From assembly GCF_016653405.1 (NCBI RefSeq), contig NZ_NHSN01000029.1, positions 1 to 47,677 of the forward strand: a stretch of 47,677 nt of DNA, read 5' to 3'. The stretch comes from Halorhodospira halophila (GTDB taxonomy: Bacteria; Pseudomonadota; Gammaproteobacteria; Nitrococcales; Halorhodospiraceae). The notes beneath the pieces were generated by a model, which saw nothing but the letters and a program-made list of their open reading frames with translations, was not told the origin of the DNA and made no database searches. The position numbers and the translations under genes were made by a program. Numbering within the stretch: the first letter of the stretch is position 1; every line of letters begins with the position of its first letter. This document shows positions 31,419 through 35,154 of the stretch, one piece after another.

Positions 31419-32204
31419 ATGGCGTCCGGCGAAGCCTTCGACAGCGACTGGATCCTACGCATGAACGATGCCACGCCCGTCGGCGTGCTTTGGCGCGCGC
31501 TGGAGGCCGACGGTGGCACGCCGGGGCCGGCCTGCGCGGCCGCCTTCGGCAGCCTGCGCGCCCAGCTCGACACCACCCTGGCCGGCCTGAACACCGTGCC
31601 CGGCGCGGCCAGAACAGGCGACCCCCCCGAAGACGAACACCCCAATTGGCTGGCGCCGTGGCTGCAGACCCTCGCCCGGCTCGGCCCCTGGCAGCACGGC
31701 CTCGAGCGCACCCAGGGACTGCAGATCGCCCTGGACCGCTACCTGCACGCCCACGCCCAGTGCGCCCGGATCCTGCTCGAATCGGCCCGCACTGGGCTCG
31801 ACACCCTGGAGCAGCACCTGCAGACAGCCGCACAGGACCCACAGCAGTCGCTACCGGAGAGCTACCGGGCGCTTTACGAGTGGTGGCTGACCGACAGCGA
31901 GGCCTGCTACGAGCAGACCCTGGCCTCACAGCAGTGGGCCTCGGCCTTCGGCCGGCTGACCAACGCCACCACCGAGCTCGTCGGCCGCTACCAAGAGCAG
32001 CTCGACACCGGGCTGCGCACCCTGGACCTGCCCAACCGGGATGACTTCCTCGATACCCAGCGCCGCCTGGTCGAGCTCGAGCGCGGCCAGCGCCGCACGG
32101 CGCAGGGCGACGAGCTGGCCGCCCTGCGCGAAGAGGTGGCACGCCTGCGCGAAGAGGTGAAGGCCCTGCGGGCCGAACGCACAGCAGGGCGACGGGAGCA
32201 GTGA
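31419..32204 (+). CDS. phaE: Class III PHA synthase subunit PhaE
   Basis: Non-catalytic partner of the class III polyhydroxyalkanoate synthase, 261 aa. It is Gln/Leu/Ala-rich and helical, with the TDSEACYEQTLASQQWASAFG-like segment (around residues 151-170) typical of PhaE and a C-terminal coiled coil (about 215-250). GGGAG 7 nt upstream supports ATG 31419. Its TGA overlaps the phaC ATG by one base (TGATG), so translation is coupled. It is smaller than the PhaE of Allochromatium (about 357 aa). Confidence 0.9.
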   Translation: MASGEAFDSDWILRMNDATPVGVLWRALEADGGTPGPACAAAFGSLRAQLDTTLAGLNTVPGAARTGDPPEDEHPNWLAPWLQTLARLGPWQHGLERTQGLQIALDRYLHAHAQCARILLESARTGLDTLEQHLQTAAQDPQQSLPESYRALYEWWLTDSEACYEQTLASQQWASAFGRLTNATTELVGRYQEQLDTGLRTLDLPNRDDFLDTQRRLVELERGQRRTAQGDELAALREEVARLREEVKALRAERTAGRREQ

Positions 32205-33244
32205 TGGCCGAGAACCCACCCGACAGCGGCCTGACCGACTGGCAGCGCCGCCTGATCGAGACCCTCGAGCAGGGGGCCGAGCTACCCGTGGACACCCGGG
32301 GCGCAACCCCCTTCACCCTCCACGCCGAACCGGGGCCGGGCATGCACCTGCGCCGCTACGCCCCGGCGCGCAGCACCGGCCAGCGGCCGGTGCTCATCGT
32401 CTACTCGCTGGTCAACCGCCCCTTCATCCTCGACCTCACCGAGCGCCGCTCGCTCATCGCCGCCCTGACCCGGGCCGGCCACCCGGTCTACCTCCTCGAC
32501 TGGGGCTACCCGAAGGGCGCCGACCGCTTCCTGGGCCTGGCGGACTACATCGACGAGTTCCTTGCCGCGGCGGCCGCAGAGGTGGCCACCAGCGAGGGCG
32601 CCTCCCCCGACCTGCTCGGCGTCTGCCAGGGCGGCGTCTTCGCGCTGTGTCTGGCCGCGCTGCAGCCGCACCGCGTCCACCGGCTGGTGAACCTGGTGAC
32701 CCCGGTGGACTTCCACACCCCCGGGGACAACCTCAGCCGCATGGCTCAGGAGGTCGACTTCGACCAGGCGACACAAACCCTCGGCAACATCTCGGCGGAG
32801 TGGCTCAACGGCGTGTTTGTCGCCCTCAAGCCCTACCGCCTGCTCGCCCAGCGCTACATGGACCTGCCCGAGCTGGCCGGCCACCCGGAGGCCCTCCACG
32901 ACTTCCTGCGCCTGGAGCGCTGGATGTACGACAGCCCCGACCAGGCGGCCACCGCTTTCGCCGAATTCGGCCGCGAGTGCTACCAGCGCAACGGGCTGCT
33001 GCGTGGCACGCTGACCCTTAACGGCCGGCCGGTGCACCTGGGCAACATCGAGCACCCGACCCTCAATGTCTACGCCGAACAGGACCACCTGGTCCCGGCC
33101 GATGCCGCGCGCGCCTTGCGGGACCACATCGGCTCAACGGACTACGGCGAACTGGCCTTTCCCGGAGGGCACCTGGGCGTGTTTATCAGCCGCCGAGCCC
33201 ACGCCGAACTCCTGCCACGGATCGTGGCCTGGCTGGCGGAGTAG
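32204..33244 (+). CDS. phaC: Class III PHA synthase subunit PhaC
   Basis: Catalytic subunit polymerising 3-hydroxyacyl-CoA (mainly hydroxybutyrate) into PHA granules; 346 aa, the class III size. The lipase-box-like GVCQGG holds the catalytic Cys141; Asp294 (EQDHLVPAD) and His323 (PGGHLGVF) complete the triad. DWGYPKGADRFLGLADY and the EHPTLNVYAEQDHLV regions are family-typical. The first codons are GTGATG; I chose ATG 32204, with GGGAG about 6 nt upstream, which overlaps the phaE stop. phaA (thiolase) is not in the window, and phaB lies just downstream on the other strand. Confidence 0.95.
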   Translation: MAENPPDSGLTDWQRRLIETLEQGAELPVDTRGATPFTLHAEPGPGMHLRRYAPARSTGQRPVLIVYSLVNRPFILDLTERRSLIAALTRAGHPVYLLDWGYPKGADRFLGLADYIDEFLAAAAAEVATSEGASPDLLGVCQGGVFALCLAALQPHRVHRLVNLVTPVDFHTPGDNLSRMAQEVDFDQATQTLGNISAEWLNGVFVALKPYRLLAQRYMDLPELAGHPEALHDFLRLERWMYDSPDQAATAFAEFGRECYQRNGLLRGTLTLNGRPVHLGNIEHPTLNVYAEQDHLVPADAARALRDHIGSTDYGELAFPGGHLGVFISRRAHAELLPRIVAWLAE

Positions 33245-33346
33245 ACGCCGATGATGCAGCGCCGCATCGAGAATGCTTGCAGCCGACGCCCGGCGTCACC
33301 ACAATCTCCAGCCCATACCGGGTGCGGTTGAGCCGGGGCTGCGCCC

Positions 33347-33372
33347 AAAAAAAAACCCCCTCAGAGAGGGGG
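33347..33372 (-). terminator. Intrinsic terminator of the predicted sRNA / phaB
   Basis: CCCCCTC (33356-33362) and GAGGGGG (33366-33372) form a perfect 7-bp stem with an AGA loop. Nine A residues (33347-33355) become a U-tract on the minus-strand RNA. Confidence 0.92.
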
Positions 33373-33526
33373 CAAGGAGTTGGCGACAATTGTCTCCGGG
33401 GAGGAGACGCCGCCAGGAGGAGACCGGCTAACAAAACTTTGGCTCCTTCAGGAGCCTCACCGCAGGCCCGCTTGGCGCCTGGCCGCCGGAGTCCGGCGCG
33501 CCGGGTGGGCCGCGGCATTGTTGCTA
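33347..33526 (-). ncRNA. Predicted small RNA with UCCUCC-type loops
   Basis: A minus-strand transcription unit of about 180 nt in the 368-nt gap between phaC and phaB. It has a strong promoter (33533-33561), no plausible reading frame, and an intrinsic terminator at 33347-33372. Three small hairpins are visible: GGCTCC/GGAGCC with a 4-nt loop (33441-33456), a 5-bp stem with a UCUCCUC loop (33412-33428), and GUCUCC/GGAGAC with a UCCCC loop (33392-33408). The exposed CUCCU motifs are complementary to Shine-Dalgarno sequences. I recognise no known Rfam class: it does not resemble 6S, tmRNA or RNase P RNA. It could also be the 3' UTR of phaB, whose stop is at 33613. Confidence 0.6.
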
Positions 33527-33532
33527 CGCAAC
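33520..33532. promoter_or_regulatory. Palindrome at the sRNA start site
   Basis: GTTGC and GCAAC, 3 nt apart, sit immediately downstream of the -10 element and cover the predicted start site. This could be an operator or a 5' hairpin stabilising the RNA. Confidence 0.4.
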
Positions 33533-33561
33533 ATGATAGCCCCGTCACATTGGGCTGTCAA
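33533..33561 (-). promoter_or_regulatory. Sigma-70 promoter driving the predicted sRNA
   Basis: On the minus strand: a perfect TTGACA (33556-33561), a 17-nt spacer and TATCAT (33533-33538), five of six bases of the -10 consensus. The start would fall near 33526, in the middle of a GTTGC-TAC-GCAAC palindrome (33520-33532). Confidence 0.8.
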
Positions 33562-33612
33562 ATACTGCCCGCCCCTGAGCAATCGCTGATCACCGGGGCG
33601 GGCCAAACCGGC

Positions 33613-34359
33613 TCAGAAGCTGCAGAACTGACCACCGTTGACCGGCACATTGGCGCCGGTGATGTAGCCCGACTCGTCCGCTACCAGGAAGCCGATCACC
33701 CGCGCGATCTCACCGGGCTCGGCCATGCGGCCCGCCGGGATCTGCGAAACGATCTGCTCGCGCACGTTATCCGGGATCGCCGCCGTCATGCTCGTCGCCA
33801 CGTACCCGGGTGAGACGGTGTTCACCGAGACACCCTTACGTGCGTTCTCCTTGGCCAGCGCCATGGTGAAGCCGTGCATGCCGGCCTTGGCCGCGGAGTA
33901 GTTCGCCTGACCGAACTGCCCGGTCTGACCGTTCACCGAGGCGACATTGACGATGCGCCCGAAGCCGCGATCCCGCATGCCGTTGAGGAACTGGCGCGTG
34001 ACGTTGAACACGCTGTCCAGGTTGATGTCGATGACATCCTGCCAGTCCTGGTGCTCCATCTTGTGGCAAAAGGCGTCACGGGTGATGCCGGCGAGATTGA
34101 CCAGCACCTCCACCTCGCCGTAGGCCTGCTTCATCTGTTCGGCCATGCGCTGGCAGGACTCGTAATCCGCCACGTTGCACTCAACGTAGCCGACCTCGTA
34201 GCCCTCCTCGCGCAGCTGCGCCTGCCAATCCTCAACGCGCTCCGCCTTGGCGTCCACGCAGGTGGTGACCACGCGATATCCCTGCGCGGCGAGTTCGCGA
34301 CAGACAGCGGTGCCGATGCCACCGTTGCCTCCGGTTACCAGGGCCAAACGACCTGCCAT
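33613..34359 (-). CDS. phaB: Acetoacetyl-CoA reductase
   Basis: Reduces acetoacetyl-CoA to (R)-3-hydroxybutyryl-CoA, the PHA monomer; 248 aa short-chain dehydrogenase. The cofactor loop TGGNGGIG is at residues 9-16, and the catalytic Ser141, Tyr154 and Lys158 (YSAAK) are present. The late segment PVNGGQFCSF, near the C-terminus, is typical of PhaB. I chose ATG 34359 (AGGAA about 9 nt upstream); the frame is open further up but the sequence is not PhaB-like. A promoter and two palindromes lie upstream (34442-34493). phaR is 264 nt upstream on the same strand and phaE-phaC converge on it. Confidence 0.95.
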   Translation of the reverse strand: MAGRLALVTGGNGGIGTAVCRELAAQGYRVVTTCVDAKAERVEDWQAQLREEGYEVGYVECNVADYESCQRMAEQMKQAYGEVEVLVNLAGITRDAFCHKMEHQDWQDVIDINLDSVFNVTRQFLNGMRDRGFGRIVNVASVNGQTGQFGQANYSAAKAGMHGFTMALAKENARKGVSVNTVSPGYVATSMTAAIPDNVREQIVSQIPAGRMAEPGEIARVIGFLVADESGYITGANVPVNGGQFCSF

Positions 34360-34441
34360 ATCGGTATTCCTCGCTTTTCTGCATTGGACTTGCACGCAGC
34401 GGGCGCACGGCCGGATGCCGCGCTGCACCACTTTTGTGCAT

Positions 34442-34457
34442 CGCAGCATATGCTGCG
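34442..34457. promoter_or_regulatory. Perfect 16-bp palindrome near phaB start site, candidate PhaR site
   Basis: CGCAGCATATGCTGCG is a perfect 16-bp palindrome beginning one base after the predicted phaB start site. TGC-rich palindromes of the form CTGC-N3/4-GCAG are, to my recollection, the DNA target of PhaR in Paracoccus. Confidence 0.55.
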
Positions 34458-34464
34458 CCTAAGA

Positions 34465-34493
34465 AGCTTATGCTGCGCCGCAGCGAGTGTCAA
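34465..34493 (-). promoter_or_regulatory. phaB promoter with embedded TGC palindrome
   Basis: Minus strand: TTGACA (34488-34493), 17-nt spacer, TAAGCT (34465-34470). The spacer holds the palindrome GCTGCG-C-CGCAGC (34472-34484), which contains CTGC-N3-GCAG. A near-copy of the whole module lies upstream of phaR. Confidence 0.65.
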
Positions 34494-34623: not shown

Positions 34624-35154
34624 TTACTGATCCTGGCGGTGGCGACCGGGGCCCCGGTTGGAGGCGGGCGGATCCTCGAACCCGCCGCTGCCTTCCTCGT
34701 CACGGCTGCCTTCCTCGTCGCGGCTGCTGTCCATCCCGCTCATCTGGCGCCACAGGGCCAGGTTACGCTCGGCGAACTGGGTCATGATGTTCATGGGGTT
34801 ATGGTCCATGAACTCGCGGGTACGCTGCTGGAAGACGCGCTGCTGATCCGCCCAGAGCTCCAGGCTCTTCTCCAGATAGCTGGTGAGCATGTTCTGCATG
34901 TTGCCGCCGTAGGCCCGGATCAACTGGGCCAACAGCTGGCTGGAGAAGATCGGCTCGCCCTCCTCCTCCTCCTCGCTGATGATCTGGAGCAGGATGCTGC
35001 GGGTAATGTCCTCACGCGTCTTGGCGTCGACGACCTGGAAGTCGACACTCTCGAGCACCAGGCGCTTGACGTCGGCCAGGGTGATATAGCTCGAGATCGC
35101 CGTATCGTAGAGGCGGCGGTTGGGGTACTTCTTGATGATCCGGGTATCTGACAT
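34624..35154 (-). CDS. phaR: PHA synthesis repressor/granule-associated regulator PhaR
   Basis: A 176-aa regulator that binds both DNA and PHA granules and represses phasin and its own gene in Paracoccus and Ralstonia. The N-terminal domain (about 3-62) begins RIIKKYPNRRLYDTAISSYI, the PHB accumulation regulatory DNA-binding signature. The second domain (about 65-110) has PIFSSQLLAQLIRAYGG and LTSYLEKSLELWADQQ. A tail of SRDEEG repeats and basic residues follows. ATG 35154 has GGAGG 6 nt upstream. Its promoter (35181-35209) is almost identical to that of phaB, consistent with autoregulation. Confidence 0.93.
   Translation of the reverse strand: MSDTRIIKKYPNRRLYDTAISSYITLADVKRLVLESVDFQVVDAKTREDITRSILLQIISEEEEEGEPIFSSQLLAQLIRAYGGNMQNMLTSYLEKSLELWADQQRVFQQRTREFMDHNPMNIMTQFAERNLALWRQMSGMDSSRDEEGSRDEEGSGGFEDPPASNRGPGRHRQDQ

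Follow-up and report, generated by a model that had tools for sequence, protein, structure and literature searches.

A conserved small RNA gene, probably under PhaR control, between phaB and phaC in Halorhodospira halophila

The gap between phaC and phaB of Halorhodospira halophila almost certainly holds a real and conserved small RNA (sRNA) gene, judging from sequence comparison with its relatives. The sRNA, about 180 nt long, is probably controlled by PhaR, since a PhaR-type operator lies on its promoter, and it is likely to act by pairing with ribosome-binding sites. A trans-acting sRNA of the PhaR regulon that pairs through a CUCCUCC motif with ribosome-binding sites is the explanation that we favor, with reasonable confidence. 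The unit sits between the convergent genes phaB and phaC in the window (the whole stretch of 47,677 nucleotides that was analyzed), with the following neighbors:

31419-32204, plus strand: phaE, PHA synthase III subunit E (PF09712)
32201-33244, plus strand: phaC, class III PHA synthase, a name based on synteny and the adjacent phaE
33613-34449, minus strand: phaB, short-chain dehydrogenase of the acetoacetyl-CoA reductase type, with translation probably beginning at codon 31 of its longest frame
34624-35154, minus strand: phaR, PHA-responsive repressor (PF07879 and PF05233)

For the phaC product, the Pfam family above cut-off was Abhydrolase_1.

The original prediction described a TTGACA and a TATCAT at 17-nt spacing and a terminator with nine U residues in this gap, and all of these were confirmed on the minus strand. 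The elements of the predicted gene are:

33556-33561, minus strand: -35 hexamer, TTGACA
33533-33538, minus strand: -10 hexamer, TATCAT, with a 17-nt spacer to TTGACA
33347-33526, minus strand: sRNA gene, about 180 nt, with its start site placed from the position of the -10 hexamer
33416-33422, minus strand: first CUCCUCC, a mostly unpaired anti-Shine-Dalgarno motif and the proposed pairing site
33381-33415, minus strand: hairpin UGGCGGC...GUCGCCA with inner stem GUCUCC/GGAGAC
33400-33406, minus strand: second CUCCUCC, within the loop of this hairpin and shared with only some close relatives
33347-33373, minus strand: intrinsic terminator, a stem (33373-33356) followed by nine U (33355-33347)

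The promoter is a near-consensus sigma-70 promoter with 11 of 12 matches. No other site on either strand of the window reached 11 of 12 matches at spacings of 16-18, and no promoter of this quality occurred in 20 Markov shuffles of the window. The terminator follows about 170 nt downstream. The predicted fold of the sRNA had an energy of -88.6 vs. -74.6 kcal/mol for dinucleotide shuffles (z = -3.2), and was better than all 200 of them. Within this fold, the mean unpaired probability was 0.78 for the first CUCCUCC and 0.43 for the copy in the loop. The layout is better described as a largely unpaired CUCCUCC, a hairpin with a loop copy, and a terminator than as the trio of compact CUCCU-loop hairpins that had been proposed.

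The same prediction held that no reading frame lies between promoter and terminator. Two long frames do cross the stretch, and neither is likely to be a gene:

33186-33548, minus strand: frame of 120 aa, beginning upstream of the inferred transcript start
33277-33813, plus strand: frame of 178 aa, crossing the sRNA stretch

Neither reached a Pfam cut-off (the best match being DUF5535, at 14.1 of 25 bits), the first starts before the transcript, and both were interrupted in the closest relatives, where tblastn to nine relative loci showed stops or broken frames in the stretches that matched. A small protein was thus rejected as the product. A product of the phaB 3'-UTR was rejected because the sRNA has its own promoter, and a CsrA sponge on the minus strand because the motif is CUCCUCC and not GGA.

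When 59 genomes were searched by blastn with the 216 bases, two genomes of the same genus matched over nearly the full length (83%); in others the match covered the 3' half, and the low-scoring rows were due to chance. At loci L001-L015 the match adjoined phaB, and it lay between phaB and phaC in all 14 with DNA reaching phaC. At E<=0.01, a model of 63 positions (R1) had matches in 44 of the 54 order genomes, the weak ones being unreliable; all 12 genomes of the window's own family and 13 of the 14 of another (f2) were matched at <=6.2e-8, and the source genome gave one match. The DNA after phaR was read in 20 further genomes, two of which had good R1 matches. A CUCCUCC stretch followed phaB in 15 of the 20; no CUCCU was found after phaB in four, and in the last the contig ends.

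Regions downstream of phaB from 35 of the 54 order genomes were analyzed, leaving out ended contigs, genomes that lack the elements, some that were treated elsewhere (including G016, below), and some others. By simple scans, 21 of the 35 regions had a minus-strand promoter (10-11 of 12 matches, with TTGACA or TTGACG as the -35 hexamer) together with a terminator. The CUCCUCC, the covarying hairpin and the terminator hairpin stay between the promoter and the end, and the middle of the sRNA varies in length, leaving an sRNA of only about 110 nt in one genome. Across much of the order, the sequence of promoter, palindrome, CUCCUCC, hairpin and terminator is kept after phaB, facing phaC. The conserved CUCCUCC is the first copy. 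Its mean unpaired probability was 0.39-0.97 across the 21 RNAs, compared to all-position means of 0.33-0.48, and was merely 0.39-0.48 in three of them. The promoter, hairpins and terminator, on whose conservation in relatives the original prediction depended, are kept as a unit in these 21 regions, and the comparison supports an independent sRNA gene.

The hairpin also shows covariation. In an alignment made with the model (A4; 32 copies in 28 distinct rows), which retains the first CUCCUCC, 8 of 15 pairs had changed on both sides, as had five of the eight helix pairs of the hairpin at 33381-33415. The covariation score was 0.256, vs. 0.110 when shuffled; none of 500 shuffles scored as high and slid structures reached at most 0.061, although this alignment was fitted to the model and so favors the structure. 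One of its rows (L002) is in the wrong register, with its own CUCCUCC further upstream. In an alignment made with MAFFT (A3), three pairs had changed on both sides, a number reached by 91 of 500 shuffles, and the covariation score was again matched by none of 500; A3 shows the trend of A4 with less power. Both replaced an earlier MAFFT alignment (A1), in which the CUCCUCC of one family was aligned with the loop copy in another family, and two more (A5 and A6) were left unused because the first hairpin was unaligned. At two pairs of the hairpin, A4 contains 15 G-U cells; the other strand would have A-C mismatches there, which favors an RNA from the minus strand.

The strongest link to PHA metabolism, which had been raised as a possibility, came from an element absent from the original prediction: a PhaR-type operator on the sRNA promoter, one of two strong candidate sites in this locus.

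33518-33534, minus strand: PhaR-type operator ATGTTGCGTAGCAACAA, over the edge of the -10 hexamer and the start site (matrix score 22.8)
34433-34449, minus strand: the other strong operator of PhaR type, ahead of the likely phaB start (matrix score 21.6)

The palindrome at the start site, TGTTGCGTAGCAACA, resembles the published PhaR sites of Ralstonia, YTKNTGCRNYGCANMAR (PMC12849132), and Sinorhizobium, YGCRNYGCR (PMC12542648). Phasin matches were present in 19 genomes, and 30 phasin loci were examined as classical PhaR targets. TGCN3GCA was present within 300 nt upstream in 29 of the 30, giving 50 sites vs. 5.1 in Markov shuffles, often as two sites 27 bp apart. A matrix built from 45 phasin sites, all from genomes other than the source, was run over 447,677 bases of the source genome (the window plus 400 kb in stretches chosen to include both phasin loci; 16% of the genome). 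The six best sites were those of phasin 2 (25.3 and 19.8), the sRNA (22.8), phasin 1 (22.4 and 22.3) and the phaB upstream region (21.6), so that the sRNA palindrome ranked second; the seventh-best site scored 14.9. The source genome contains the 15-mer TGYTGCRNAGCARCA a single time, at the sRNA. All 21 promoter-keeping regions had a PhaR-type site scoring 17.0-23.9 at the -10/start position and, as a check on the matrix, a site above 16 was found in 18 of 30 phaR loci (the window's own and G013 included). Apart from a difference in the spacer (discussed below), the sRNA operator is like those of the phasin genes in the same genome, and the comparison thus bears out the link to PHA metabolism. 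A weaker PhaR-type site lies at 34470, near the operator upstream of phaB. A dyad such as GACAGACAGATTGGTCT was seen in the promoter spacer at four loci from the second family and others, and is possibly the operator of a second regulator.

One order member (G016) has three copies of the sRNA core: two in tandem at pha (G016:C1 513158-513554) and a third elsewhere under another promoter (G016:C1 892769-892829), near a gene pair that we take to be cydAB-like. The promoter of the third copy has no operator palindrome, suggesting sibling sRNAs under different control.

Look-alikes were also found outside the order. Across 369 genomes of the class, R1 gave 18 matches at E<=1e-4, the source genome included; by tblastn, phaB or phaC was found at none of the 18 other loci of this search, and phaR at one. 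Several of these matches look like chance, and it was through three loci, L062, L065 and L067, that the wider class was reached. At L062, a promoter of similar build carries an operator. At L065 and L067 the RNA lies downstream of a 109-110-aa gene that has operators before it; phaR precedes this gene at L067, and was not seen in the L065 stretch. The small Ala-rich protein of L067 had no Pfam match, so to call it a phasin would be a guess. The CUCCUCC double-hairpin RNA at L067 (1055-1566) and L065 is perhaps a 3'-UTR-derived sRNA.

A second model (R2) was built from five RNAs found with R1 and contains no order member; the R1 and R2 searches are consequently not independent. R2 matched 24 of the 369 class genomes, the source genome included, with the window RNA at 1.8e-7. 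In G223 and G091 the RNA follows phaR by ~0.1 kb and ~0.6 kb, respectively. Both loci have the layout of the window: a promoter (TTGACT and TTGACA, with TATACT and TATGAT), an operator on the promoter (23.2 and 21.5) and a CUCCUCC double hairpin. An operator (21.5) and the RNA were also present in G078, near a gene that is presumably polynucleotide phosphorylase-like. PhaR was detected in 107 of the 369 genomes and in 10 of the 24 R2-positive ones, and is thus only mildly commoner among the latter. Among 28 phaR loci (the window's own and G013 left out), R2 gave clear matches in three, one of which had gone into the model. Five genomes with strong R2 matches had no detected PhaR, which shows that this kind of RNA is not confined to PHA. 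Strong RNAs of the form UCUCCUCC-hairpin-CGCACUU-terminator were observed at four loci, in genomes with no PhaR match, and represent a wider sRNA type; Rfam cut-offs were not reached at the three of these four that were compared.

In 40 class loci, some of them overlapping, an operator above 16 was found in 11 vs. 1.3 in shuffles, and one above 20 in 7 vs. 0.1. Operators at two loci, each over 1 kb away from the RNA, were excluded from this support. The 120 pattern-scan loci made an unclean control because they contain order members: 14 of the 120 scored above 16, at least 8 of these with phaB/phaC. In a DNA-pattern scan of genome contigs that gave at least 120 stretches, most of the 80 matches listed were from other phyla and look like chance.

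The proposed mode of action starts from PhaR. When no PHA is present, PhaR bound to the palindrome at the -10 and start site would repress the sRNA in the way that it represses the phasin genes. As granules form, PhaR would be drawn onto them, and the sRNA would be made together with the phasins. Its CUCCUCC would then pair with purine-rich ribosome-binding sites, probably with the help of Hfq, and translation of a set of mRNAs would be lowered, which might limit phasin and granule build-up, damp carbon uptake, or both. The genome has an hfq gene (Hfq, 104 bits) and the RNA ends in U9, as expected for an Hfq-dependent sRNA. The anti-Shine-Dalgarno motif of the original prediction is borne out by the conservation of CUCCUCC, which can pair with Shine-Dalgarno sites, very many of them.

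Target prediction against ribosome-binding sites, which had been suggested as a check, identified no targets and did not single out the phasins. A duplex scan with 20-nt segments against 190 confident starts of the source genome, for which start-codon calls were crude, ranked phasin 1 30th, phaC 87th, phaE 96th, phaB 107th, phaR 123rd and phasin 2 144th. (A scan with the whole sRNA was dominated by GC-rich structure and was discarded in favor of the segments.) The predicted pairing with phasin 1 consists of 5 + 6 pairs around one bulge (AGGAG-A-GAGACC) and is present in G006 too; it is suggestive only.

These low ranks of phasin and pha ribosome-binding sites, and the fit of CUCCUCC to very many Shine-Dalgarno sites, are what might be seen if the sRNA served global or carbon-uptake control, with PHA setting the timing and the phasin and pha genes not among its targets. 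We consider this quite possible, at somewhat under an even chance; it is a sub-case of the favored explanation, differing in targets only. It is in keeping with what is reported on the double-hairpin RNA NcS27, the overexpression of which slows growth, and on its group, with predicted targets among transport and metabolism genes (PMC5688073). That the sRNA lies within the pha cluster here, and next to phaR in other genomes, argues for a closer tie to PHA, as does MmgR, which is likewise repressed by PhaR and is described as affecting phasins (PMC12542648, PMC8401924).

The spacer of the palindrome bears on whether PhaR is the reader. The central spacer was RNY in 44 of 49 phasin sites vs. none of the 21 sRNA promoters: the centers of the sRNA palindromes (e.g., 33521-33531) are mostly TGCRNAGCA and those of the phasin promoters TGCRNYGCA, and the GTA spacer in the window departs from the published RNY. 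This may reflect weaker binding of PhaR, a constraint from the start site, or another protein as the reader, and somewhat lowers our confidence in PhaR control. A real sRNA whose palindrome is recognized by some protein besides PhaR, or acts as a 5' hairpin of the RNA, would account for the difference; the palindrome could fold at the 5' end if transcription started early enough. We regard this as unlikely, since the palindrome is among the best PhaR-type sites scanned in the genome, and the RNY form occurs at the same position outside the order in G223, G078 and G091 (and not at L062).

The locus also carries predicted transcription signals on the other strand, including a putative promoter that points into the sRNA and is stronger in several relatives.

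33251-33306, plus strand: decayed opposing promoter, TTGCAG-17-CACAAT

This promoter has an operator-like palindrome, ATGATGCAGCGCCGCAT, scoring 12.4. In many relatives, a terminator on the phaC strand (GGGAG..CTCCC-T) and a promoter of the TTGCCA/TTGCGA-16-TACAAT type face the sRNA, making up a second predicted sRNA gene that was absent from the original prediction. The phaC-strand terminator was present in 22 of the 35 regions. Both promoters and both terminators were found in six; three had the opposite-strand promoter and terminator without a minus-strand promoter; and in nine the opposite terminator was present while neither strand had a scored promoter. A promoter element is still recognizable in some of these nine, and three of them have a weaker terminator-like hairpin on the minus strand as well. 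The opposite terminator was not found in the window or in seven regions from the same genus, and was present in one other from that genus.

That the functional product is the opposite-strand RNA or a sense/antisense pair, with the minus-strand RNA as antisense regulator, appears improbable. It would fit the 12 of the 22 terminator-bearing regions that have no minus-strand promoter, as well as the operator-like palindrome before the opposing promoter. Against it, the window and seven same-genus regions have no opposing terminator that we could find and the promoter is weak, and both the G-U pairs in the hairpin and the duplicated cores in G016 favor the phaB strand.

Strand usage seems to have changed among the regions, as judged from their differing promoter and terminator sets in consensus scans rather than from transcripts. 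The active strand would be the opposite one in a group of small genomes (g10) that we take to be Spiribacter-like, both in Aquisalimonas-like genomes, and the minus strand only in the close relatives of the window. To our knowledge, strand turnover at a single locus is unusual for sRNA evolution. The pha locus of this one order would hold a convergent sense/antisense sRNA pair, each with a PhaR-type operator. The PhaR regulon would have an RNA arm, in which the repressor that senses granules governs an sRNA with CUCCUCC, much as MmgR is governed in Alphaproteobacteria. As a general statement, that PHA-storing Gammaproteobacteria possess such an arm coupling storage to translation, with a convergent, strand-switched sRNA pair at pha, is tentative and rather doubtful.

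The position between convergent genes would also suit a cis element, whose promoter and terminator insulate phaB from phaC or interfere with transcription without any role in trans. This is very unlikely, since CUCCUCC is conserved and the middle of the RNA is not, a copy lies away from the pha genes in G016, and the neighbors outside the order are different ones. A functionless chance pairing of promoter and terminator has a negligible probability, being contradicted by the conservation, covariation and operator results.

At Rfam gathering scores, the window contained one tRNA only, and eight relative loci gave nothing. The original statement that the RNA matches no known class thus holds for the Rfam cut-offs. 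Its architecture is nevertheless like that of the double-hairpin RNAs (RF02278/NcS27) and resembles MmgR; lenient Rfam matches are taken here as leads and not as membership. Cuckoo RNAs of Alphaproteobacteria have a CCUCCUCCC-type motif. The likeness to these is one of motif, and we do not claim homology.

MmgR of S. meliloti (alpha-r8, RF00519 'suhB') shares a CU-rich core and an intrinsic terminator; it too has a link to PHA and a palindrome in its promoter, the counterpart in the window being a candidate PhaR operator. MmgR is repressed by PhaR (AniA), which binds the palindrome of the mmgR promoter in EMSA (PMC12542648), and it affects PHB as well as phasins (PMC12542648, PMC8401924). The window RNA differs in scoring 18.2 bits against a cut-off of 41, in coming from a different bacterial class, and in being about 180 nt long and inside the pha locus, compared to 77 nt for MmgR. 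Of the MmgR traits, the palindrome is present here at a score of 22.8 with a non-RNY spacer, and pairing with the phasins ranks 30 and 144 of 190.

As a sensor of PHA granules PhaR has been studied in depth, and in the available texts we found an sRNA under PhaR described only for Sinorhizobium (MmgR); a search of open-licence full texts, and of titles and the starts of abstracts, found no PhaR-controlled sRNA in Gammaproteobacteria. Together with the similar RNAs that neighbor phaR in other families, the halophile sRNA suggests that control of translation by granule state may be common, and a PhaR-linked sRNA bears on PHA production in halophiles.

The betaproteobacterial toxic small RNAs (RF02278; NcS27, NcS03) share the CU-rich unpaired stretch, the hairpin and the terminator hairpin. 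In the excerpts available, the CU-rich unpaired stretches of the Burkholderia double-hairpin RNAs are complementary to ribosome-binding sites (PMC5688073, PMC10987360, PMC11722255), Bordetella S17 is described as similar to them, and a link to PHA is not mentioned for the group. The window RNA differs in its score (18.0 bits against a cut-off of 50), its long 5' part and its PhaR-type operator, and when six related loci from outside the order were scored with the RF02278 model, four of them reached 26.3-28.5 bits. The anti-hemB RNA of Burkholderia (RF02837) likewise has a CU-rich stretch and a terminator, whereas the window RNA scores 19.3 bits against its cut-off of 49.5. The window sRNA is a new family of a known kind.
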